Assembly: GCF_002105535.1 (NCBI RefSeq)
Contig: NZ_CP015848.1
Coordinates: 3,452,926 to 3,516,925, forward strand
Source: Magnetospirillum sp. ME-1
Lineage (GTDB): Bacteria; Pseudomonadota; Alphaproteobacteria; Rhodospirillales; Magnetospirillaceae
Length of the DNA: 64,000 nucleotides
Direction: 5' to 3'
This document shows, piece by piece, positions 48,894-63,393 of the stretch; the first letter of the stretch is position 1; each line of letters opens with the position of its first letter. Under the pieces are notes generated by a model, which was not told where the DNA came from, did not search any database, and saw nothing but the letters and a program-made list of their open reading frames with translations. The translations under genes were made by a program, and so were the position numbers.

Positions 48894-50297
48894 TCAGCGC
48901 AGGATCTTGCCCGGGTTCATCAAACCCTCGGGATCGAGCGCGTTCTTGACGCGGGCCATCAGGTCCAGGTCGATGCCTGGCTTGTAGTGGGCCAGTTCCT
49001 CGACCTTGAGCCGCCCGATGCCGTGCTCGGCCGAGATGGAGCCCTCCATGCCCACCACGATGTCGTGGACGATGCGGTTCATCTCTTCCCAGCGGGCCAG
49101 GAAGGCCGCCTTGTCCGTACCTGCCGGCTGGGTCAGGTTGAAGTGGGTGTTGCCGTCGCCCAGATGGCCGAAGGGCACCACGCGCACGCCGGGCATGGCC
49201 GCCTCGACCGCGCTCGTGCAGCGGCGGATCATCTCGGGCACCCGCGAGGTGGCGACCGCGACGTCGTGCTTGATGGAGCCGCCTTCCTTTTTCTGGGCCT
49301 CGGGGATGGCTTCGCGGATGCGCCAGAAATCGGCGCGCTGGCTTTGGCTTTCGGCGATCACCGCGTCGGTCGCCAACCCGTCCTCGAAGGCCCGGGCCAG
49401 CACCTCCTCCAGGGTGTCGCGCAGGCCGCCCGGCCTGGACGACGACAGCTCCAGCAGCAGCATCCACTCATGGGGGGCGGCGAAGGGATCGCGGACGCCG
49501 GGCACGTGGCGCAGGCCCAGTTCCAGGCCGATGCGCGGCACCAGCTCGCAGGCGGTGACCGCATCGCCGCTGGCCGAACGCGCCCGGGCGAACAGGGGAA
49601 GTGCCGCCTCCAGGTCGGACAGCGCCACCATGGCGGTGGCCACCTCGCGCGGGCGGGGGAACAGCTTCAGCACGCAGGCGGTGATGATGCCGAGCGTCCC
49701 CTCGGCGCCGATGAACAGGTGTTGCAGCGCATAGCCGGTATTGTCCTTGCGCAGCCGCTTCAGGCCATTCCAGATCCGGCCGTCGGGCAGCACCACCTCC
49801 AGGCCCAGCACCAGATCGCGGGTGTTGCCGTAGCGCAGCACGTTGGTGCCCCCGGCATTGGTCGAGATGTTGCCGCCGATGCGGCACGACCCTTCCGCCC
49901 CCAGGCTCAAGGGGAACAGGCAATCGGCCTCCGCCGCCGCCTGCTGCAGGCTGGCCAGCACGCAGCCCGCCTCGGCGGTCAGCGTGAAATCCACGGGATC
50001 GACGGCCCGGATACGGGTCAGGCGCTCGGTGGAGATCACCACGCTTCGCCCGTCCTCGGCCGGCACGCCGCCGCCGCACAGCCCCGTGTTGCCGCCCTGG
50101 GGCACCATGGGAATGCCGGCGTTCGCGCAGGCCTTGACCGCCTCGGACACCTCGGCGGTGGAGCCGGGGCGGATCACGGCCAGCGCCGCGCCGCGATACA
50201 GGCCGCGCTCCTCCACCAGATAGGGCGCGAGGTCGGCGGCGTCGGTGATGACGTTGCCGGGGCCGACGATGGCGGCGAGGGCGGCGAGAATGCTCAC
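48894..50297 (-). CDS. FAD-linked 2-hydroxyacid oxidoreductase (GlcD/D2HGDH-like)
   Basis: The product is 467 residues from a GTG at 50297 overlapping the TsaC stop (GTGA). It has the FAD-binding PCMH motif (VPQGGNTGLCGG, GGNISTNAGGTNVLRYGNTRDLVLGLEVVLPDG) and the C-terminal FAD-oxidase signature HLGDGNTHFNL and SAEHGIGRLK. The group includes D-lactate, glycolate and D-2-hydroxyglutarate dehydrogenases. The substrate is undecided. Confidence 0.9.
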   Translation of the reverse strand: MSILAALAAIVGPGNVITDAADLAPYLVEERGLYRGAALAVIRPGSTAEVSEAVKACANAGIPMVPQGGNTGLCGGGVPAEDGRSVVISTERLTRIRAVDPVDFTLTAEAGCVLASLQQAAAEADCLFPLSLGAEGSCRIGGNISTNAGGTNVLRYGNTRDLVLGLEVVLPDGRIWNGLKRLRKDNTGYALQHLFIGAEGTLGIITACVLKLFPRPREVATAMVALSDLEAALPLFARARSASGDAVTACELVPRIGLELGLRHVPGVRDPFAAPHEWMLLLELSSSRPGGLRDTLEEVLARAFEDGLATDAVIAESQSQRADFWRIREAIPEAQKKEGGSIKHDVAVATSRVPEMIRRCTSAVEAAMPGVRVVPFGHLGDGNTHFNLTQPAGTDKAAFLARWEEMNRIVHDIVVGMEGSISAEHGIGRLKVEELAHYKPGIDLDLMARVKNALDPEGLMNPGKILR

Positions 50298-51262
50298 GAC
50301 GGGCTCCGTGGTGCGGCGGCGCGCCGCAGGCGGTCGTTGATGGCCAGGCCCAGGCCCTTTTCCGGGATGGGCATCACGGCGATGCCCCGGTAATCGGGGC
50401 GGTCCAGGGCGCGCAGCATGGCGAACAGATGGGCGGCGGCCTCGGACAGATCGCCCTTGGGCGACAGGTTCAGCACGCTGTCGGGGGCGGGGCCGAAGCC
50501 CAGCAACGCCTCGCCCGGCTCGGCCGCGTGGGCGTTGAGCCGGACGGGGAGGGCGGGGGCGTAATGGCTTTCCAACTGGCCGGGCGAGCGCGGCGCCTCC
50601 GGCGTCTCCAGGGCGCGGCGGATGGGATGGCCGAGTGCCGCCTCCAGCTCCTCGGCGGTGATGCCGCCGGGGCGCAGCAGGGTGGGGGGCTGTTCCGACA
50701 GGTCCAGCACGGTGGATTCGACGCCGACCCGGCAGGGGCCGCCGTCCAGCACCATGGCGATGCGGCCTTCCAGGCATTGGGCCACATGCTCGGGCCGGGT
50801 TGGGCTGACGCGGCCCGAGCGGTTGGCCGAGGGCGCCGCCAGGGGCCGCCCCGCCGCCTTGATCAGGGCCAGGGCGACGGGATGGTCGGGCATGCGCACC
50901 GCCACCGAATCGAGCCCGGCCGAGGCCAGTAGCGACACCGGCGAATCGGCGCGGCGCTTCAGCACCAGGGTCAGCGGACCGGGCCAGAAGCGCTCGGCCA
51001 GACGATGGGCGTCGGGGCAAAGCTCCACCAGGGCGGCGGCCTGCTCCAGGCTGCTCACATGGGCGATCAGCGGATTGAAGCTGGGGCGGCCCTTGGCCTT
51101 GAAGATGGCGGCCACCGCCGCATCGGACGTGGCGTCGCCGCCCAGGCCGTAGACCGTCTCGGTGGGAAAGGCCACCAGCCCGCCCTCGGCCAGCACGCGC
51201 CCGGCCCGGGCGATGGCGGCGGGGTCGGCGGGCAGGACGGAAACGGGCACGGGCTTGCTCAT
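50294..51262 (-). CDS. L-threonylcarbamoyladenylate synthase (Sua5 form of TsaC)
   Basis: The product is 322 residues. YrdC domain motifs are GGLVAFPTETVYGLGGDATS, KGRPSFNPLIAHV, RFWPGPLTLVL and SANRSGRVSPT. The C-terminal 100 residues form the Sua5 extension, so the protein is of Sua5 length, longer than TsaC. It makes the activated threonylcarbamoyl used for tRNA t6A37. ATG at 51262 is likely; an in-frame ATG at 51280 is possible. Confidence 0.92.
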   Translation of the reverse strand: MSKPVPVSVLPADPAAIARAGRVLAEGGLVAFPTETVYGLGGDATSDAAVAAIFKAKGRPSFNPLIAHVSSLEQAAALVELCPDAHRLAERFWPGPLTLVLKRRADSPVSLLASAGLDSVAVRMPDHPVALALIKAAGRPLAAPSANRSGRVSPTRPEHVAQCLEGRIAMVLDGGPCRVGVESTVLDLSEQPPTLLRPGGITAEELEAALGHPIRRALETPEAPRSPGQLESHYAPALPVRLNAHAAEPGEALLGFGPAPDSVLNLSPKGDLSEAAAHLFAMLRALDRPDYRGIAVMPIPEKGLGLAINDRLRRAAAPRSPS

Positions 51263-53805: not shown

Positions 53806-54582
53806 TTATCCCCTTCCCCTGGCGATGAAGTCGGGGTTGAGGAATTTGGGCGCCTTGCCATAGGCCATGGGGCGGCCGTCGAAGGTGGTGACACTGCCGC
53901 CCGCCGCCAGCAGCACGGCGCTGGCCGCCGCGATGTCCCACTCGCTGGTGGGGCCGAAGCGGGGGTAGAGATCGGCGGCGCCCTCGGCCACCAGGCAGAA
54001 TTTCAGCGACGAACCGGCGAAGCCCAGGGAAGCGCCGGGATAGCGCGCCATCCACTTGTCCAGGGCTTCCGGTTCGCGGTGGGAGCGCGACGTCATGACC
54101 ACGGCGCCGGAAGGGGGAATGGGTCGGCAGGCGATGGGGCGGCGGCCCTGGGCATCCTCCTTGAAGGCGGTGGTTCCGGTCCCCGACCACAGCTCGGCCC
54201 GTGCCGGGGCCAGCACCACGCCCAGGACCGGAACGCCGTCGCGGATCAGGCCGATGTTGACGGTGAACTCGCCGTTCCTCTTGATGAATTCCTTGGTGCC
54301 GTCCACGGGATCGACCAGCCAGAAGGGGCCGGAGCCGATCTCGGGAATGCGCCCGGCGGCCACGGATTCCTCGGCCACCACCGGAATGCCGGGGGTGAGT
54401 GCCGCGAGGCCGGGCAGGATGATGGCCTCGGCCTTCTCGTCGGCCAGGGTGACCGGCGAGGAATCGGTCTTGTCGCGGACGGTGAAGTCCGAGTTGTAGA
54501 CTTCCATGATCACCACGCCGGCCCGGCGGGCCAGGTCTTCCAGGGGGGCAAGCAGGGACGACAGGTCGGGGGGCAGGCTCAT
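53806..54582 (-). CDS. cysQ: 3'(2'),5'-bisphosphate nucleotidase CysQ
   Basis: The product is 258 residues from the ATG at 54582. Lithium-sensitive phosphatase motifs are visible: DSSPVTLADEKAE, VVAEES, WLVDPVDGTKEFIKRNGEFTVNI (metal-binding DPVDGT) and WDIAAASAVLLAAGG. It hydrolyses PAP from sulfate assimilation. It overlaps the molybdenum hydroxylase gene (ATGA). Confidence 0.92.
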   Translation of the reverse strand: MSLPPDLSSLLAPLEDLARRAGVVIMEVYNSDFTVRDKTDSSPVTLADEKAEAIILPGLAALTPGIPVVAEESVAAGRIPEIGSGPFWLVDPVDGTKEFIKRNGEFTVNIGLIRDGVPVLGVVLAPARAELWSGTGTTAFKEDAQGRRPIACRPIPPSGAVVMTSRSHREPEALDKWMARYPGASLGFAGSSLKFCLVAEGAADLYPRFGPTSEWDIAAASAVLLAAGGSVTTFDGRPMAYGKAPKFLNPDFIARGRG

Positions 54583-56777
54583 GCGCACGTTCCGGCAAGG
54601 ATGGTCCACACCGCCAGCGGCGTGGCGGGCATGTCCATATGGCGGATATCCAGCGCGTTGCATAGGGCGTTGATCACGGCGGGCGCCGCGCCGATGGTCC
54701 CTGCCTCGCCCGCTCCCTTCAGGCCCAGGGGATGGGTGCGGCAGGGCACCTCCACCGTGGAAAAGTCGATGTCGGGGATGTGGGCCGCCCGGGGCAGGGC
54801 GTAGTCGATCAGGCTCGACGTCAGCGGCTGGGCGCTTTCCGGGTCATAGACCGCGTGCTCCAGCAGCGCCTGGCCGATGCCCTGCACCGCGCCGCCGACG
54901 ATCTGGCCTTTCAGCAGCAGGGGGTTGAGCACCGTGCCCACGTCATCGACGATGGTGTAGCGGGCGATCTCCGTCTCGCCGGTGTCCGGGTCCACCTCAA
55001 CTTCACAGACATGGCAGCCGTTGGGAAAGGTCGAGGCGGGGGGCTTAAAGCGCAAGCTGGCCGACAGGGGCGTCCCGGCCTCGGCCAGCACCTGGGTGAA
55101 GGTGACGGAGCCGCCCGCCGAACGGTAATGGCCGGACTCGAACTCGGCCCGCTCGGATTGCAGCAGGCGGGACGCCACGGGGCGCAGATGCTCGATGAAG
55201 GATTCCACCGCCGAGGCGATGGCGCCGCCCTGTTGCGACAGCGAGCGCGAGCCGCCGGTGCCGCCGCCATCGGCGATGCGCCTGGTGTCGCCCTGGACCA
55301 CCCGGATGTTCGCCATCTCCAGGCCCAGCTCGGCGGCCACCATCTGGGCGTAGGCGGTCTCGTGCCCCTGGCCCGTGGATTGGGTGCCGACCAGGATTTC
55401 GGCCGTTCCGTCCGGCGCGATGGTCAGGGTTACGTCCTCGCCCGAGGTCCCGCCGCAGATCTCGATGTAATACGCCAGCCCGATGCCGCGACGCTTGCCC
55501 CTGTCTTCGCTTTCGGTTCTCCGGGTCTCGAACCCGGCCCAGTCGGACCGCTCCAGCGCCCGGTCCATCACCAGCGCGAACTCGCCGGAATCATAGGTGT
55601 GACGGCCGGGCGTGGCATAGGGGAAGGCATCGGGGGGAATGAAGTTGCGTTTCCTGATCTCCACCGGCGACAGGCCGCTGTCGCGCGCCGCCGCGTCCAC
55701 CAGCCGCTCGATCAGATAGGCGGCCTCGGGGCGTCCGGCGCCGCGATAGGCGTCCACCGGGGTGGAATGGGTGTGAATGCAGCGCACCCGGGCGTGGAAG
55801 GCGGGGATGTGGTAGACCCCGGTCAGCATGCCGGTCCCCGCCAGGGTGGGGACGAAGGCGCCGTAATTGGAAATATAGGCCCCCAGGTCGGCCACGGTCT
55901 CCACCTGCAGGCCGAGGAATTTCCCATCGGCGTCAAGCGCCAGGCGCGCGCTGCTCACATGCCCGCGCCCATGGGTGTCGGTGAGGAAGCTTTCCGTGCG
56001 GTCGGCGGTCCACTTGACCGGTCGGTCGAGAATGCGCGCCGCCACCAGGGCCATGGCCTGTTCGGCGAAGGGGCTGATTTTCAGGCCGAAGCCGCCGCCC
56101 ACGTCGGGCGTGATGACGTCGAGGCTTTCCGGCGCGATGCCCAGCACCGGGGCGAGGCGGTCCCTGATCTCGTGCACCCCCTGGCTTCCCGAAATCAGTT
56201 CCAGCCGTCCGCCCTCCAGCGGCCGGGCCAGGCAGGCGCGCGGCTCCATGGCGGTGGGCGCCAGGCGGTTGTTGACCAGGTCCAGCTCCACCACCCGGGC
56301 GGCGCGGGCCAAGGCCTCGGCCACTTGGGGAGCGTCGCCCATCTCCCAGACGAAGGCGTCGTGGGGCGTGGCTGGCAGCGGGTGGTAGTCCACCAGCACC
56401 GCCTCGGCGGCATCCTGGGCCTGGGCCAGGGTCTCGGCCACCACGAAGGCCACCGGCTCGCCGGCATGGCGCACCCTGGGGCCGGCGATGACGGGGCGGG
56501 GCGGCGGCGGGGGCGCGCCTTCGGGCAAGAAGCCGCAGACCATGGGGCCCACGCCCTGCTCCGCCATCTCGGCATGGGTGAGGACCAGCAGCACGCCGGG
56601 CATTTCGCGTGCGGCGGCCGCATCCACCGTGACGTCGGCGTGGGGCAGCAGTGAACGCACCACCATGCCGTATGACTGACCGGTCAGGTTGATGTCGTCG
56701 CCATAGCGTCCCCGCCCGGTGAGGAAGCGCTGGTCCTCGACCCGGGTACGGGATTGGCCGAAGCCGAAGCGCTTCAC
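54579..56777 (-). CDS. xanthine dehydrogenase/aldehyde oxidase family molybdenum-binding subunit, no FAD or FeS partner adjacent
   Basis: The product is 732 residues, starting with GTG that overlaps the stop of the Memo-AMMECR1 gene (GTGA). It is the large, molybdopterin-cytosine-dinucleotide subunit type: DVGGGFGLKISPFAEQAMAL, AYRGAGRPEAAYLIERLVD and the catalytic-Glu segment GLKGAGEAGTIGAAPAVINA. The AYRGAGR loop is the aldehyde-oxidase/form II type, not the CO dehydrogenase CSFR type. The [2Fe-2S] and FAD subunits normally encoded alongside are absent. Its place in an operon with the AmmeMemo gene and cysQ is unusual. Confidence 0.85.
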   Translation of the reverse strand: MKRFGFGQSRTRVEDQRFLTGRGRYGDDINLTGQSYGMVVRSLLPHADVTVDAAAAREMPGVLLVLTHAEMAEQGVGPMVCGFLPEGAPPPPPRPVIAGPRVRHAGEPVAFVVAETLAQAQDAAEAVLVDYHPLPATPHDAFVWEMGDAPQVAEALARAARVVELDLVNNRLAPTAMEPRACLARPLEGGRLELISGSQGVHEIRDRLAPVLGIAPESLDVITPDVGGGFGLKISPFAEQAMALVAARILDRPVKWTADRTESFLTDTHGRGHVSSARLALDADGKFLGLQVETVADLGAYISNYGAFVPTLAGTGMLTGVYHIPAFHARVRCIHTHSTPVDAYRGAGRPEAAYLIERLVDAAARDSGLSPVEIRKRNFIPPDAFPYATPGRHTYDSGEFALVMDRALERSDWAGFETRRTESEDRGKRRGIGLAYYIEICGGTSGEDVTLTIAPDGTAEILVGTQSTGQGHETAYAQMVAAELGLEMANIRVVQGDTRRIADGGGTGGSRSLSQQGGAIASAVESFIEHLRPVASRLLQSERAEFESGHYRSAGGSVTFTQVLAEAGTPLSASLRFKPPASTFPNGCHVCEVEVDPDTGETEIARYTIVDDVGTVLNPLLLKGQIVGGAVQGIGQALLEHAVYDPESAQPLTSSLIDYALPRAAHIPDIDFSTVEVPCRTHPLGLKGAGEAGTIGAAPAVINALCNALDIRHMDMPATPLAVWTILAGTCA

Positions 56778-58144
56778 TTGCCGATCTCCACCGCCTGGAA
56801 GCGCGACGCCTTGAAGCCGGGCGACCAGTGATCCTTGGGCATGCCGGCCTTGGCCTTGAGGTGGGCGAGGAACTGGTGTTTGTCGGGCAGTTGCTCCCAC
56901 ACCGAGGGCAGGAACAGGGCGCGCTTGGCCCCGTCCTCGATGATCAGGCCGTCGATGCGGGGACGAAGCTGTTCCAGCATGTCTTCCTGGTCCCTGAAGG
57001 CCATGGGAACGGGGGGCGTTAACACCGACAGCGACAGGGAAAGGCCCTCCAGCTCCTCGGGCGCCAAGGGCGGGAAGCGCGGGTCCTTGAAGGCCGACTT
57101 GAAGGCGTTGTCCACCACGTCCTCGGCCAGCGGCCGCCAGGCGATCACCGAGCCGATGCAGCCGCGCAAGCCACCCCCTCGGTTGAGCGTGACGAACACC
57201 GCGCCGGGACGGGCCAGGATGCCGGGCCGATCCGAAGGCGGGGCGGCGGGCGCGCCGGTGTCCAGCCCGTGGCGGATGGAGGCCCAGGCCAGCTCGGTCA
57301 GCGCCCGTCCGGCGGCCTTGATCTCGTCGGCCTCTGTCATGCTCTCCTCCGTCTCGAACAGCGCCCAGGAGCCGTAGCCCACCACCCGGTCCTTGGGTCC
57401 GGCGGTATCGCCGGAATTGCGCACGTCCAGGGTGACGATCTCCAGAGCCCGGCGTCTGGCCGTGGTCAGCAATCCGCCTACCGGCAGGCGGCCGCAGGCG
57501 CCTTCGCGGGAAATGGCGGCGGGGTCCATGTGCTCGATGGCCGCCACCGTCCGGGCATCGGTGCCCCTGCACTGGTCGTAGGGCAGATAGTGGGACAGGT
57601 CGGTGGAGATGACGATCAGGGTTTCCGGCCCGCCCCACAGGGCGTCCAGCAGCCCGGCCACCATGTCGGGGCTGGCGTCGCCGATCACCACCGGCAGCAG
57701 GGTGAAGTCGCCCAGGGTGGCCTGCAGGAAGGGGACGTGCACCTCCAGCGAATGCTCCTGGGCGTGGGCCTGGTCCAGCACGCCGACCCCCGCCACGCCC
57801 GCCAGCCGCGACCAGTCCTTGTCCAGCGGTACCGCGCCCAAGGGCGAGGCCCATTGGTCGGCCGAGGACAGCGCCATGCCCTGGAACGCCACCCGATGGC
57901 TGGGGCCCAGCAGCACCACGCGGGTCCAGCTGCCCCGGAAGGGCTTGAGCAGGGCATAGGCGGCGGCCGCCACCGGCCCGGAATAGACCCAGCCGGCATG
58001 GGGCGCGATCAGCGCCTTCGGCCTTCTGCCCGCGCAAGGCGGGTGCACCGCGCCGTCGAGAAAGGCGGTGAGCTGCCGGTTGGCCTCGGCGAAATCGGCG
58101 GGATAGAACTGTCCGGCCACGGCGGTGGGGCGGATGGCGGTCAT
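56774..58144 (-). CDS. AmmeMemoRadiSam proteins B and A fused (Memo-AMMECR1)
   Basis: The product is 456 residues. Residues 1-270 are a Memo domain: ALIAPHAGWVYSG, LLGPSHRVAFQ, HSLEVHVPFLQA, STDLSHYLPYD and ACGRLPVGGLLTTAR keep the His/His/Cys metal site of Memo1. Residues about 275-456 are AMMECR1: FVTLNRGGGLRGCIGS, DPRFPPLAPEELEGL and a conserved SVLTPPVPM stretch. GAGG precedes the ATG. It is divergent from the radical SAM gene of the same system at 58193. The function of this ancient trio is not established. Confidence 0.9.
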   Translation of the reverse strand: MTAIRPTAVAGQFYPADFAEANRQLTAFLDGAVHPPCAGRRPKALIAPHAGWVYSGPVAAAAYALLKPFRGSWTRVVLLGPSHRVAFQGMALSSADQWASPLGAVPLDKDWSRLAGVAGVGVLDQAHAQEHSLEVHVPFLQATLGDFTLLPVVIGDASPDMVAGLLDALWGGPETLIVISTDLSHYLPYDQCRGTDARTVAAIEHMDPAAISREGACGRLPVGGLLTTARRRALEIVTLDVRNSGDTAGPKDRVVGYGSWALFETEESMTEADEIKAAGRALTELAWASIRHGLDTGAPAAPPSDRPGILARPGAVFVTLNRGGGLRGCIGSVIAWRPLAEDVVDNAFKSAFKDPRFPPLAPEELEGLSLSLSVLTPPVPMAFRDQEDMLEQLRPRIDGLIIEDGAKRALFLPSVWEQLPDKHQFLAHLKAKAGMPKDHWSPGFKASRFQAVEIGK

Positions 58145-58192
58145 GACGGCCTCGGGCGCGAAAACGTGGTGGGGATATGGTACTCTTCCCCC

Positions 58193-59281
58193 ATGACCGA
58201 CGCCATCCAGGGTTCGCATTTTCCCGGACGCTACTGGCAGCGCCTGTCCGACGGGCGGGTGCAGTGCGACGTCTGCCCGCGCGAGTGCCGCTTGAACGAC
58301 GGGCAGCGGGGCCTGTGCTTCGTGCGGGCCAATGACGGCGGCCGGATGGTGCTGACCACCTATGGCCGCTCGTCGGGTTTTTGCGTCGATCCGGTGGAGA
58401 AGAAGCCGCTCAACCACTTTTTGCCCGGCACGCCGATCCTGTCCTTCGGCACGGCGGGCTGCAACCTGACCTGCAAGTTCTGCCAGAACTGGGACATCTC
58501 CAAGGCGAGGGAGATCGACCGGCTGAACGATTACGCCGACCCCGACATGATCGCGCGGGCCGCGGTACAGCTGGGCTGCCGCTCGGTGGCCTTCACCTAC
58601 AACGATCCCACCATCTTCCTGGAATACGCCGTGGACGTGGCCCGGGCCTGCCATGCCCGCGGATTGAAGACCGTGGCGGTGACGGCGGGCTACATCAAGC
58701 CCGAGGCGAGGCGGGAATTCTACGCCCACATGGACGCCGCCAACGTGGACTTGAAGGCCTTCACCGAGGATTTCTATCACCGCCTGTGCGGCGCCCATCT
58801 CGACGCGGTGAAGGACACCCTGGTCTACCTCAAGCACGAGACCAGGGTGTGGTTCGAGGTCACCACGCTCTTGATCCCCGGCGAGAACGACTCGCCCGAG
58901 GAGATCGACGCCCAGAGCCGGTGGATGATGGAGGCGCTGGGGCCCGACGTGCCGCTGCACTTTTCCGCCTTCCATCCCGACTGGAAAATGCGGGACCTGC
59001 CCCCCACGCCGCCCGCGACCCTCAGCCGGGCGCGCGCCATCGCCATGGGCAACGGCCTGAACTACGTCTACACCGGCAACGTCCACGATCCGGCGGGGGG
59101 CGGGACCTATTGCGCGGGCTGCGGCGCCCTGCTGATCGGGCGGGACTGGTACGAGCTGTCCACCTGGGCGCTGACCCCCGAAGGACATTGCCGCGCCTGC
59201 GGTACGCCCTTGCCCGGGCGTTTCGAGGGGGCGCCGGGCACCTGGGGCCGCAAGCGGCAGCCGGTCAGGTTCCAGCGCTGA
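58193..59281 (+). CDS. amrS: AmmeMemoRadiSam system radical SAM enzyme
   Basis: The product is 362 residues. The cluster motif is CNLTCKFCQNW, with an N-terminal CDVCPRECRL and FCV, and C-terminal Cys pairs (YCAGCGALL, HCRACGTPL) that likely bind zinc or an extra cluster. The family is related to pyruvate-formate-lyase-activating enzymes but works on an unknown substrate. Divergent from the Memo-AMMECR1 fusion with 48 bp between starts. An in-frame GTG at 58166 could extend it by nine residues. Confidence 0.9.
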   Translation: MTDAIQGSHFPGRYWQRLSDGRVQCDVCPRECRLNDGQRGLCFVRANDGGRMVLTTYGRSSGFCVDPVEKKPLNHFLPGTPILSFGTAGCNLTCKFCQNWDISKAREIDRLNDYADPDMIARAAVQLGCRSVAFTYNDPTIFLEYAVDVARACHARGLKTVAVTAGYIKPEARREFYAHMDAANVDLKAFTEDFYHRLCGAHLDAVKDTLVYLKHETRVWFEVTTLLIPGENDSPEEIDAQSRWMMEALGPDVPLHFSAFHPDWKMRDLPPTPPATLSRARAIAMGNGLNYVYTGNVHDPAGGGTYCAGCGALLIGRDWYELSTWALTPEGHCRACGTPLPGRFEGAPGTWGRKRQPVRFQR

Positions 59282-59347: not shown

Positions 59348-60337
59348 ATGGTGAAGCGCTGGTTGCCGTGGGTGCTCAAGGGGCTGCTCTCGGCCGGACT
59401 GATCTGGTTCGCATTCCGCAATATCGACTTGGCCGAGGCCTGGAGCCGGGCCAAGACCATCGATCCCATGATGCTGACCGTGGCCCTTGCCCTGGGCATC
59501 GGCCAGATCGTCATCGGCGCGGGGCGCTGGTGGTTGGTCCTGCGGGCGCTCAAGGCCAGCTTCTCGGTGATCCAGGCCCTGCCCGTGTTCTATATCGGCG
59601 TCTGCTTTTCCATCGTCACCCCGGTGCTGGGCGACGCGGTCCGCATGTGGAAGGCGCGCCATTCCGGCCTGTCGCTGAAAACCAGCGTCAATTCCGTGAT
59701 GCTGGAACGGATCACCACCATCCTGGGCCTGGTGCTGCTGGTCACCGCGCTCGAGCCCCTGCTGCTGGCCCGTGTTCCCGATGTTCCCGGCACCTGGGTC
59801 TTTCCGCTGCTGTCGGTGGCCGGTTTCGCCGGCATCGCCTTCATCAGCCAGCTGGACCGGCTTCCCGCCTCGCTGCACCGCTGGCGGGTGGTGCGCGGCC
59901 TGGTGCATCTGGCCGGTGACACCCGCCAGTTCGTGCGCCGTCTTCCGTTCAGCGTCGGCACGCTGGCCGTGGCCGTGTTCGGGCACGCCAACCTGGCCCT
60001 GATGGTCTATATCCTGGCGGTGGGGCTGAAGATCAACGTTTCGCTGCTCGATTGCCTGATCCTGTTCCCGCCGGTGATCCTGGCGCTGACCCTGCCCATC
60101 TCCATCGCCGGCTTCGGCCTGCGCGAGAACATCATGATCGTCGCCTTCGGCTGGGTGGGGGTCGAGGCGGGCTCGGCCGCCGTGCTGGGTCTGATGTTCG
60201 GCCTGACCAGCATCGTCACCGCCTTGCCCGGCGGCTTGATCTGGCTGATGTCGGGTGATCATCCCAAGCTGGATGAGATCGAGCACATCGAGGAAGAGGC
60301 CGAGATCGAGGCGGAAAAGGACGGAATGACGGGGTAA
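59348..60337 (+). CDS. lysylphosphatidylglycerol synthetase-like integral membrane protein (flippase-like UPF0104)
   Basis: The product is 329 residues with seven or eight membrane helices and the family motifs FRNIDLAEAWSRAK, NSVMLERITTILG and PPVILALTLPISIAGFGLREN. It lacks the soluble C-terminal catalytic domain of MprF, so it is of the flippase-only type. The C-terminal tail is acidic (DEIEHIEEEAEIEAEKDG). Substrate unknown; a membrane lipid is likely. It follows amrS by 66 bp. Confidence 0.82.
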   Translation: MVKRWLPWVLKGLLSAGLIWFAFRNIDLAEAWSRAKTIDPMMLTVALALGIGQIVIGAGRWWLVLRALKASFSVIQALPVFYIGVCFSIVTPVLGDAVRMWKARHSGLSLKTSVNSVMLERITTILGLVLLVTALEPLLLARVPDVPGTWVFPLLSVAGFAGIAFISQLDRLPASLHRWRVVRGLVHLAGDTRQFVRRLPFSVGTLAVAVFGHANLALMVYILAVGLKINVSLLDCLILFPPVILALTLPISIAGFGLRENIMIVAFGWVGVEAGSAAVLGLMFGLTSIVTALPGGLIWLMSGDHPKLDEIEHIEEEAEIEAEKDGMTG

Positions 60338-60417
60338 CCCCCTTTCCTTCCTGCTTGAGCGCGCTACATTGGGACAAGTGAATTCCGTCCCAATGTCCTT
60401 CAAGCGCGAGGATGTCC

Positions 60418-61926
60418 ATGAAGATCGCCTTTTCCAAGCCGTCGCAGCCCACCACCGGCGCCATCGCCGTCGGCATCCTTGAAGGCAAGGTGCTGACCGG
60501 CACCGCCCAGGCGCTGGATGCCCAGGCCAAGGGCGGCATAGCCCGCGCCATCGCCGCCTCGGGCCGCTTCGAGGGCAAGAAGGGCCAGACCCTGACGATC
60601 CTGGCTCCGGCCGGTCTGGAACTGTCCCGCGTGCTGCTGGTCGGCCTGGGCAAGGCCAAGGACCTGGATTGCCTGGCGGCGCAGGCCTTCGGCGGCACCG
60701 TGGTGGGGCAGTTGCAGACCTCGGGCGACGCGGACGTGGCCGTCGCGCTGGACGTCATTCCCGGCTCGCCGCTGTCGGCCGCCGAGTTCGCTGCCCAGGC
60801 GGCGCTGGGGGCGCGGCTGCGCTCGTACCGCTTCGACAAGTACTTCACCAAGCAGAAGAAGGAGGACAAGCCCTCCTTGAAGAAGCTGACCCTGATGACC
60901 GAGGCGGCTTCCGAGGCCAAGTCGGCCTTCGCTCCGCTCGACAAGGTGGCCGACGGGGTGTTCCTCACCCGCGACGTGGTTTCCGAGCCCGCCAACGTCA
61001 TCCACCCGGAATCCCTGGCCGAAAAGGCCGAGGGCCTGAAGGAGCTGGGCGTCGAGGTCGAGGTGCTGGGCGAAAAGCAGATGAAGAAGCTGGGCATGGG
61101 CTCGCTCTTAGGCGTCGGCCAGGGCTCGGAGCGCGAATCCAAACTGGTGGTCATGCGCTGGCAGGGCGCCAAGGATAAGGGCGAGGCCCCGGTGGCCTTC
61201 GTCGGCAAGGGCGTCACCTTCGATTCGGGCGGCATCTCCATCAAGCCGGGCGCCGGCATGGAGGACATGAAGTGGGACATGGCGGGCGCCGGCGCGGTGA
61301 TCGGCGCCCTGGCCGCCCTGGCGGGCCGGAAAGCGCGGGTCAACGCGGTGGGTGTGGTCGGGCTGGTGGAGAACATGCCGTCGGGCACCGCCCAGCGCCC
61401 CGGCGACGTGGTGACCTCCATGTCGGGGCAGACCATCGAGGTGATCAACACCGACGCCGAGGGCCGCCTCGTGCTGGCCGATGCGCTGTGGTACACCCAG
61501 GACCGCTTCAAGCCGAAATTCATGGTCGACCTCGCCACCCTGACCGGCGCCATCATCATCGCCTTGGGCAACGAATACGCCGGCCTGATGGCGTCCGACG
61601 ACAAGCTGGCCGATCGCCTCACCGCCGCCGGCAAGGCGGTGGACGAGAAGCTGTGGCGTCTGCCCTTGGGCGAGTCCTACGACAAGCAGATCAAGTCCGA
61701 CATCGCCGACATGAAGAACGTGGGCGGCCGCGAAGGCGGTTCCATCACCGCCGCCCAGTTCCTCAAGCGCTTCACCAACGACGTGGCCTGGGCCCATCTG
61801 GACATCGCCGGCATGGCCTGGAGCAAGAAGGACGCCGCCACCTGCCCGAAGGGTGCGACCGCCTTCGGCGTGCGCCTGCTGGACCGGCTGGTGGCCGATT
61901 TCTACGAGGAGAAGGGGGGCAAGTAG
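60418..61926 (+). CDS. pepA: leucyl aminopeptidase
   Basis: The product is 502 residues from the ATG at 60418 with GAGG 6 bp upstream; an ATG two codons earlier is possible. M17 metal-site motifs are complete: VGKGVTFDSGGISIK, MKWDMAGAGAV and NTDAEGRLVLADAL. It is a Zn or Mn aminopeptidase of peptide turnover, and PepA can also bind DNA. The paralogue follows after 3 bp. Confidence 0.95.
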   Translation: MKIAFSKPSQPTTGAIAVGILEGKVLTGTAQALDAQAKGGIARAIAASGRFEGKKGQTLTILAPAGLELSRVLLVGLGKAKDLDCLAAQAFGGTVVGQLQTSGDADVAVALDVIPGSPLSAAEFAAQAALGARLRSYRFDKYFTKQKKEDKPSLKKLTLMTEAASEAKSAFAPLDKVADGVFLTRDVVSEPANVIHPESLAEKAEGLKELGVEVEVLGEKQMKKLGMGSLLGVGQGSERESKLVVMRWQGAKDKGEAPVAFVGKGVTFDSGGISIKPGAGMEDMKWDMAGAGAVIGALAALAGRKARVNAVGVVGLVENMPSGTAQRPGDVVTSMSGQTIEVINTDAEGRLVLADALWYTQDRFKPKFMVDLATLTGAIIIALGNEYAGLMASDDKLADRLTAAGKAVDEKLWRLPLGESYDKQIKSDIADMKNVGGREGGSITAAQFLKRFTNDVAWAHLDIAGMAWSKKDAATCPKGATAFGVRLLDRLVADFYEEKGGK

Positions 61927-61929
61927 CCC

Positions 61930-63393
61930 TTGCGCATCACCTTCCGCTCTCCCCCCGCCACATTCGAAGGCGCCATCGCCGTCGGGTTGTGGCGGGGCCG
62001 CATCGCCACGCCATCGTTTGCCGCCCTGGACGGCGACGGTTGGCTGTCCCGGGCCTTGAAGCGCCTGGGCTTCGACGGCGATGCCGAGGAGACGGAGCTG
62101 CTGCTGGCCCCCAAGCCGCCGCTGACCACCCTGGTGGCGTTCGGGCTGGGCAAGGGGCGCAGGCTGAAGGCAAAGCGCCTGCGCCGCATCGGCGCCTGCC
62201 TGCTGGACGAACTGGACGAAAGCCGCGCCCGGTCGGCCACCGTCCTGCTCGACCTTCCCCCCGATCAGGTGGCCGAACTGGCCTACGGGCTGCGGCTCAA
62301 ATCCTATCGCCCTCTGTCCAAGTACCGCACCAAGTACGATCCCGACGACGAGGACGACATTCCGCCGGTGCTGGAGCACGTGGCGGTCTGCTGCGCCCAG
62401 CCCGACGAGGCCGAACGGCTGTTCGCGTCCCACGAGGCGGTGGCCAGGGGGGTGTTCCTGGCCCGCGACCTCACCGACGAGCCGGGCAATGCGCTGGGAC
62501 CCGACGAATTCGCCGGGCGGGCCCGCCTGCTGGGCAGCCTGGGCGTAGAGGTCACCGTGCTGGACGAGGACGCGATCGCCCGGCAGGGACTCAACCTGCT
62601 GGCGGGCGTGGGGCAGGGCAGCAAGCGGCCGCCGCGCCTGGTACTGCTGCGCTGGAAGGGGGCGGAGGGACGGCCGCTGGTGCTGGTGGGCAAGGGCATC
62701 ACCTTCGATACCGGCGGCATCACCATCAAGGACGCCGAGGACATGGAGCTGATGAAGGCCGACATGGCCGGGGCGGCGGCGGTCATGGGTGCGCTGTGCG
62801 CCGTGGCCGGGCGCAAAGCCCGCGCCCATGTGTGCGGCGTGCTGGCCCTGGCCGAGAACATGCCCTCGGGCTCCGCCCAGCGCCCCGGCGACGTGGTCAA
62901 ATCCTTTTCGGGCCGGACGGTGGAGGTGATCGACACCGACGCGGAAGGCCGCCTGGTGCTGGCCGACGCCCTGGCCTGGGCGGCGGAACGCCTGAAGCCC
63001 GCCGCCATGGTGGACATCGCCACGCTCACCGGCACCACCGAGGAATTGCTCGACGCCGAGTATGCCGGCCTCTACTGCAACGACGACGGACTGGCCCAGC
63101 GTCTGCTGCGGTACGCCAAGGCGGAGGAGGAACCGCTGTGGCGGCTGCCGCTGACCAAGGCCTGCGACGAGGACCTGAAGTCGGACATCGCCGATCTCAA
63201 GCACTGCGCCTGGGGTGACGTGCCCGACAACGACGACGCGGCCCGCTTCCTCGAGCATTTCGTGCCCGAAAGGCTGCCCTGGGCCCATATCGACATGGCC
63301 GGGCGCGAATTCGCCGACGAGGACGACCCGCTGTGCCCTGAGACGGCGACGGGGTATGGGGTCAGGCTGTTCGACGCCCTAGCGGGAGGCTGA
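61930..63393 (+). CDS. second leucyl aminopeptidase family protein
   Basis: The product is 487 residues from a TTG start, 3 bp after pepA; GGGGGG lies in the end of pepA. The M17 metal and catalytic residues are all present: VGKGITFDTGGITIK, MKADMAGAAAVMG and DTDAEGRLVLADAL. It is about 35-45% like its neighbour by eye, with a distinct N-terminal regulatory domain and a Cys pair (VCCAQPDE). Tandem duplication with divergence is likely. Its end overlaps the convergent glycosyltransferase by 15 bp. Confidence 0.88.
   Translation: MRITFRSPPATFEGAIAVGLWRGRIATPSFAALDGDGWLSRALKRLGFDGDAEETELLLAPKPPLTTLVAFGLGKGRRLKAKRLRRIGACLLDELDESRARSATVLLDLPPDQVAELAYGLRLKSYRPLSKYRTKYDPDDEDDIPPVLEHVAVCCAQPDEAERLFASHEAVARGVFLARDLTDEPGNALGPDEFAGRARLLGSLGVEVTVLDEDAIARQGLNLLAGVGQGSKRPPRLVLLRWKGAEGRPLVLVGKGITFDTGGITIKDAEDMELMKADMAGAAAVMGALCAVAGRKARAHVCGVLALAENMPSGSAQRPGDVVKSFSGRTVEVIDTDAEGRLVLADALAWAAERLKPAAMVDIATLTGTTEELLDAEYAGLYCNDDGLAQRLLRYAKAEEEPLWRLPLTKACDEDLKSDIADLKHCAWGDVPDNDDAARFLEHFVPERLPWAHIDMAGREFADEDDPLCPETATGYGVRLFDALAGG

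Follow-up and report, generated by a model that had tools for sequence, protein, structure and literature searches.

A molybdenum-hydroxylase large subunit gene that lies between AmmeMemoRadiSam genes and cysQ, with no gene for an FAD or [2Fe-2S] subunit beside it, raises two questions: where are its redox partners, and do its neighbours point to its substrate? We studied this gene in a stretch of 64,000 nucleotides (hereafter the window) that lies within the complete 4.55 Mb genome of Magnetospirillum sp. ME-1, which is assembled in one contig. Enzymes of this family hydroxylate their substrates at a molybdenum centre with oxygen taken from water and pass the electrons through two [2Fe-2S] clusters and then FAD; their cofactor and its sulfido ligand are provided by MocA and a cysteine desulfurase. 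We consider it probable that the window CoxL belongs to a split three-subunit hydroxylase together with a distant CoxS and CoxM, that its gene forms an old alphaproteobacterial pair with cysQ, and that AmmeMemo is a dispensable neighbour.

The locus and the class of its hydroxylase

The genes of the locus, in window positions, are as follows.

48894..50297 (start approximate), (-) strand: FAD-linked oxidase adjoining tsaC, named through its homologue in locus L047 (PF01565/PF02913) and its position; a member of the conserved block
50294..51262, (-) strand: tsaC/Sua5 (threonylcarbamoyl-AMP synthase), 322 aa; comes after cysQ in many relatives
53806..54582, (-) strand: cysQ, predicted 3'(2'),5'-bisphosphate nucleotidase, 258 aa; ATGA overlap with coxL; TIGR01331 272 bits against a cut-off of 228.8
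54579..56777, (-) strand: large, Moco-binding subunit of a coxL-type molybdenum hydroxylase, 732 aa with a GTG start; Ald_Xan_dh_C, MoCoBD_1, MoCoBD_2
56774..58144, (-) strand: fused Memo and AMMECR1 (proteins B and A of AmmeMemoRadiSam), 456 aa; overlaps coxL at GTGA; an optional neighbour
58193..59281, (+) strand: AmrS, AmmeMemoRadiSam radical SAM enzyme, 362 aa, CNLTCKFC (CxxxCxxC); 644 bits against a cut-off of 220
59348..60337, (+) strand: flippase-like membrane protein (LPG_synthase_TM); flanks AmrS in conserved synteny among many relatives
60412-61926 and 61930-63393: tandem leucyl aminopeptidase genes (M17), 3 bases apart, on the AmrS side beyond the flippase gene

The gene layout given in a preliminary description of this DNA holds up throughout. 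Both start-stop overlaps, GTGA between Memo-AMMECR1 and coxL and ATGA between coxL and cysQ, are present in the sequence; AmrS (58193-59281, +) is divergent from the fusion (58144-56774, -); AmmeMemoSam_B (246 bits, cut-off 26) and AmmeMemoSam_A (190 bits, cut-off 99) both match the single 456-aa frame; and profile searches show no FAD or [2Fe-2S] gene near the large subunit. The A, B and radical SAM components of AmmeMemoRadiSam all score above cut-off in the window, and the A-B fusion looks ordinary, with 130 of the 150 Memo matches listed sitting in open frames of at least 400 aa (counted by eye). Four CysQ matches occur in the ME-1 genome, and the window cysQ is the sole one above the TIGR01331 equivalog cut-off. 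Given that the four-gene arrangement recurs in many genomes, it is not due to chance. The aminopeptidase genes also recur on the AmrS side, beyond the flippase gene, in many relatives.

Matches to Ald_Xan_dh_C (80.9 bits), MoCoBD_1 (246.3 bits) and MoCoBD_2 (267.3 bits), all over cut-off, assign the predicted protein to the large subunits of xanthine oxidase family molybdenum hydroxylases. The initial label, xanthine-oxidase-type, needs a qualification: the protein is closer to CoxL and glyceraldehyde-oxidoreductase enzymes than to xanthine dehydrogenase. Near the C-terminus, GAGEAGTIG aligns with GIGESATVG of 8uem; the glutamate of this GxGE motif is an active-site residue in the family, and the pattern, searched leniently and anywhere in the sequence, is found in 92 of 92 CoxL rows. 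The loop AYRGAGR occupies the place of AYACSFR in 8uem, and 46 of the 48 cysQ-linked CoxL rows match the loop pattern, every one with AYRGAGR. According to the available part of PMC13240472, form I CO dehydrogenase has the Cys-containing loop AYXCSFR and form II has AYRGAGR, and the activity of form II CoxL is called unresolved there. By this motif the window CoxL is classified as form II.

An aerobic CO dehydrogenase of form I is ruled out by the AYRGAGR loop together with a TIGR02416 score of 416 bits against a cut-off of 991, and CO is not the expected substrate because the protein lacks the Cys-bearing loop found in CO dehydrogenase. The best NCBIfam relative is glyceraldehyde dehydrogenase alpha (NF041018), at 539 bits against an equivalog cut-off of 790; among the NCBIfam profiles scanned, NF041018 included, the protein exceeds no equivalog cut-off. 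Its closest named relatives come from Paramagnetospirillum/Magnetospirillum (86% identity to the P. caucaseum large subunit), and its solved relatives include 4zoh, which we take to be a glyceraldehyde oxidoreductase. Going by what is known of the family, the substrate is probably an aldehyde or an N-heterocycle, not CO.

Likely partner subunits elsewhere in the chromosome

Profile counts for the ME-1 genome give four large (MoCoBD_1), four [2Fe-2S] (Fer2_2) and two FAD (FAD_binding_5) subunits. A complete L-M-S set at 4.29 Mb has 4-hydroxybenzoyl-CoA reductase as its large subunit (1337 bits, cut-off 995), and the large subunits at 3.04 and 3.77 Mb each adjoin a [2Fe-2S] subunit only. Pairing these off leaves the window large subunit and an Fe-S/FAD pair at 4.2585-4.2596 Mb, 750 kb away. 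The pair has no large subunit beside it and opens a tight run coxS-coxM-mocA-sufS-sufU (locus L012), in which the names MocA, SufS and SufU are best matches below their own cut-offs. The three leftover subunits share their best subfamily: the large subunit matches glyceraldehyde dehydrogenase alpha, coxS the gamma subunit (207 bits, next best 165, cut-off 290) and coxM the beta subunit (182 bits, next best 86, cut-off 350). The hydroxylase had at first been called an orphan, a description now replaced by a likely partner pair, the coxS-coxM at 4.26 Mb that lacks a large subunit of its own.

The surroundings of such coxS-coxM pairs vary. In 13 genomes of the window's genus, its own included, sufS/sufU-like genes follow mocA in the coxS-coxM operon (L012:5361-8797), which suggests a dedicated sulfur supply for this operon in the genus; several loci of family f20 have xdhC at this place. 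A gene with a SocA/Panacea domain (PF13274; L172:7444-8019 and homologues, cluster f10 with 22 loci, of which only the L172 copy was scanned) is divergent from coxS, and both in the window's genus and in some genomes of f20 it adjoins coxS-coxM pairs that have no companion large-subunit gene.

The two unlinked loci occur together across genomes. We sampled 199 genomes of relatives for coxL (up to five scored candidates per genome), coxM and Memo, 55 of them from family f1, and in this family strong coxL and strong coxM fall in the same 19 genomes. One coxL among the 19 (G012) is a contig-end fragment (L151), and the count leaves out weak matches, which concern four genomes with weak coxM only, two of them also with weak coxL. 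A tree built from Memo, AMMECR1 and AmrS covers 32 of the 55 f1 genomes; in all 32 coxL and coxM are present or absent together, and each changes five times on the tree. The sign test for independent events within f1 is weak (three supported pairs, p 0.25). Distances for coxL and coxM, taken over 18 genomes, have a correlation of 0.919, and the partial correlation given a species proxy is 0.554, a value reached by 3 of 5000 permutations. At the order level, 20 of the 28 coxL-cysQ genomes have strong coxM away from any listed coxL, seven have it only beside another coxL, so that S/M would be shared, and one, the incomplete G160 (77%), has no strong coxM. At the class level, coxM of at least 199 bits is found in 39 of 39 coxL-cysQ genomes, and by coordinates none listed adjoins that coxL.

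These results bear on the idea that CoxL acts by itself, or is served by some unrelated electron carrier, and that the 4.26 Mb pair has no part in it. Such an arrangement would agree with the lack of physical linkage to S/M and with the 114 of 150 coxL matches listed that have no strong coxM (at least 200 bits) within 4 kb, a count made with 79 coxM rows of at least 200 bits, a 194.5-bit row and weaker ones being left out and compared by eye only. However, it leaves the leftover accounting, the identical f1 presence, the matching subfamily, the correlated distances and the class-wide presence of coxM unexplained, and we regard it as very improbable.

In the split enzyme that we favour, the window CoxL would be the catalytic part of an otherwise ordinary hydroxylase of the CoxL/glyceraldehyde-oxidoreductase group. 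It would bind molybdopterin cytosine dinucleotide and oxidize the substrate, and electrons would pass from CoxL to the two [2Fe-2S] clusters of CoxS and on to the FAD of CoxM. The MocA-like cytidylyltransferase of the coxS-coxM operon may serve the cofactor, and the SufS/SufU-like proteins probably supply its sulfur.

A bolder extension, which we put forward tentatively and hold to be doubtful, is that one unlinked CoxS-CoxM module serves several interchangeable CoxLs, each in its own operon, with the CysQ-linked CoxL as the one conserved in Alphaproteobacteria, acting on a metabolite that comes from adenylate/PAP or phosphatase chemistry. Hints of sharing come from the seven order-level genomes whose strong coxM lies only beside another coxL; from 15 f20 genomes with at least three to at least five CoxLs each among the matches listed and one to three strong coxM, in which several catalytic subunits possibly share one electron-transfer pair; and from the 39 class-level coxL-cysQ genomes, of which 34 have at least two CoxL matches and 38 a single coxM (E 1e-50 or better). 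If true, this extension would give form II CoxL its first testable physiological context. Seven mapped f20 loci (L189-L193, L195 and L196) have the order coxS-coxM-xdhC-mocA with no CoxL beside.

The coxL-cysQ pair and its AmmeMemo neighbour

The steadiest gene partner of coxL is cysQ. Within the order, the two genes overlap by four bases in 19 of 28 pairs. The 49 CoxL loci of relatives divide into 18 with cysQ and AmmeMemo, 10 with cysQ only, 12 with coxM beside, four with AmmeMemo and no adjacent cysQ, and five with none of these; the 18 show that the pairing extends beyond a single strain. The cysQ-linked CoxLs fall into the window clade (23 rows, G017 among them), a second clade of five and one long row (L071). 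G017 is a reverse case, in which AmmeMemo-coxL-tsaC is kept without cysQ, and counts against a coxL-cysQ unit. Among named loci, the best 80 of 575 matches, cysQ lies within 1.5 kb of coxL in 37, 11 of which have AmmeMemo too; coxS/coxM are nearby in 18, and none has both cysQ and coxS/M within 2 kb. Two more have AmmeMemo without cysQ, and 23 have no cysQ, AmmeMemo or coxS/M, some of them being cut by contig ends.

The pair extends across the class. A survey of 387 genomes, with up to two scored CoxL candidates taken from each, found Memo in 61 and CoxL (E up to 1e-150) in 202, and neighbourhoods were counted for 89 coxL rows from the 70 highest-scoring genomes of the 202. In 39 of these 70 genomes, representing 18 of 34 families, cysQ lies downstream of coxL on the same strand, within about 0.2 kb in 37 and at 1.5-1.6 kb in two; in the other 31 no cysQ adjoins any coxL row used. 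Simple arithmetic, with about one CysQ per genome and about 4000 genes, gives a chance expectation of well under one such adjacency.

In a tree of CoxLs (57 of 93 full-length sequences, thinned at 72% identity with coxS/M-linked rows limited to eight; a quick search without bootstrap), the cysQ-linked rows are scattered over several clades, and six of the seven coxS/M-linked rows fall in one starred group with three cysQ-linked rows and the f20 Memo-linked row. The backbones of both CoxL trees have open forks. Many relatives have Memo-AMMECR1 followed by cysQ, which was the source of the idea that coxL was inserted late between AMMECR1 and cysQ; we reject this because the cysQ-linked CoxLs span several clades and are paired class-wide. 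An old coxL-cysQ arrangement with repeated losses seems to fit these trees and neighbourhoods better than a recent insertion.

The pair may also be nothing more than inherited gene order, that is, an old block of amrS/Memo-AMMECR1/coxL/cysQ/tsaC/FAD oxidase in which coxL and cysQ stay together only because the coxL mRNA also serves for translation of cysQ. In the order, many genomes do carry a block of cysQ, tsaC/Sua5, the FAD oxidase and an LptF/G-type permease, with the flippase and aminopeptidases on the AmrS side, and this long synteny favours the idea, as do the four-base overlaps, which would make splitting costly. Yet the pair is held in the 18 families class-wide and stands apart from the rest of the block in L056, L060, L064 and L080, and where coxL is missing from this place Memo-AMMECR1 is still followed by cysQ, which shows that cysQ does not require coxL. 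We therefore rate inheritance alone as unlikely, although it deserves to be taken seriously.

On the reading that we prefer, an old gene pair, coxL and cysQ would be expressed from one transcript and their products may be linked in metabolism. We guess at a brief pathway in which a phosphorylated precursor would give an aldehyde and then an acid, and to which the block's FAD oxidase might add a further step. Against such a link, we know of no chemistry that connects PAP hydrolysis to a molybdenum hydroxylase.

The tight coupling to AmmeMemo proposed at the outset stands only in part: the two are found together in the 18 of 49 loci of relatives and the 11 of the best 80 given above, but each occurs without the other. 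Memo is present in 171 of the 199 relatives against coxL matches in 87, and at the class level 26 of the 39 coxL-cysQ genomes have no Memo match and 13 have one. In two genomes of genus g70 (G140 and G161) coxL-cysQ persists with no Memo match reported, and in G007, G031, G145, G159, G185 and G195 it is located away from AmmeMemo (G174, with coxL near a contig start, is not counted as separated). The survey of AmmeMemo loci for molybdenum hydroxylases that had been proposed found coxL in several families, but 23 of 40 Memo loci (read by eye) have cysQ downstream of AMMECR1 and no coxL. Presence and absence across genomes rule out AmmeMemo as an obligate partner of the hydroxylase. As a frequent but dispensable neighbour it does not identify the substrate, and the suggestion that it might do so gives way to CysQ as the steadier lead.

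A closer tie, with AmmeMemoRadiSam and the hydroxylase in one pathway and AmrS, Memo and AMMECR1 modifying the enzyme or a metabolite that the hydroxylase makes or uses, appears quite unlikely to us in view of these absences, the unequal counts and the separation in rearranged genomes. Of the 18 AmmeMemo-coxL-cysQ loci, moreover, just 4 show an overlap between AMMECR1 and coxL; the other 14 gaps range from 61 bases to 2.6 kb, and unrelated genes sometimes intervene. Genes seen at this junction encode a guanylate cyclase domain (L069:9015-10076), a GntR-aminotransferase (L059:5670-7061), and HSP20 and an M48 peptidase (L065:3767-5210).

In favour of one pathway, AmmeMemo-coxL-cysQ occurs in several families and beyond the order. 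Outside the order, 5 of the 39 Memo loci analysed (39 of 40 stretches, one shorter than 6 kb having been dropped, from 57 Memo-positive genomes) have a coxL at most 5 kb from Memo, and coordinates add G286, G511 and G572, with coxL and Memo within 8 kb. At the class level, 13 genomes have both genes, and in 9 of them (ME-1 included) Memo and coxL are no more than 8 kb apart, which exceeds what a pure bystander would suggest. In three genomes of genus g52 of f20 (L208, L209 and L211) the gene for a CoxL from a different clade separates amrS from memo. This may represent a second coupling to AmmeMemo that arose independently, but it is one genus in a CoxL-rich family. The g52 case and the 9 of 13 are the best remaining arguments for an AmmeMemo link, and a weaker link between AmmeMemo and the hydroxylase may exist. 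The same g52 loci have a cupin gene between AMMECR1 and cysQ.

Relation to known systems

Our literature searches found no work on AmmeMemo with a molybdenum hydroxylase, nor on coxL with cysQ; a 2019 paper on Memo-AMMECR1 systems is cited in the part of PMC7159879 available to us. The conserved coxL-cysQ unit and its separate likely redox partners offer a genetic handle, with one operon and one partner operon. They are also a reason not to label large subunits of this kind as CO dehydrogenase, as xanthine dehydrogenase or as lacking partners.

Compared with the AmmeMemoRadiSam system (TIGR04335, TIGR04336 and TIGR04337), the window has all three components but differs in that A and B are fused, as is common in the order, and in that cysQ and, in some genomes, coxL lie alongside. 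The glyceraldehyde oxidoreductase profiles (NF041018, NF041019 and NF041020) are the best relatives of all three hydroxylase subunits, yet all three score below the equivalog cut-offs. A large-subunit gene set apart from its partners is also seen in a nicotine cluster, where the gene list in the available part of PMC10494377 places KdhL apart from the KdhM/KdhS pair; the ketone dehydrogenase genes KdhL/KdhM/KdhS nevertheless share one cluster, unlike the loci described here, which are 750 kb apart, and cysQ is not named in that part of the source. The form II CoxL or aerobic CO-dehydrogenase-like hydroxylases have the same domain make-up, AYRGAGR loop and GAGE motif as the window large subunit. 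In contrast to the coxSLM operon of form II CoxL systems, the large subunit gene of the window stands alone and overlaps cysQ, and the Fe-S/FAD pair is unlinked.
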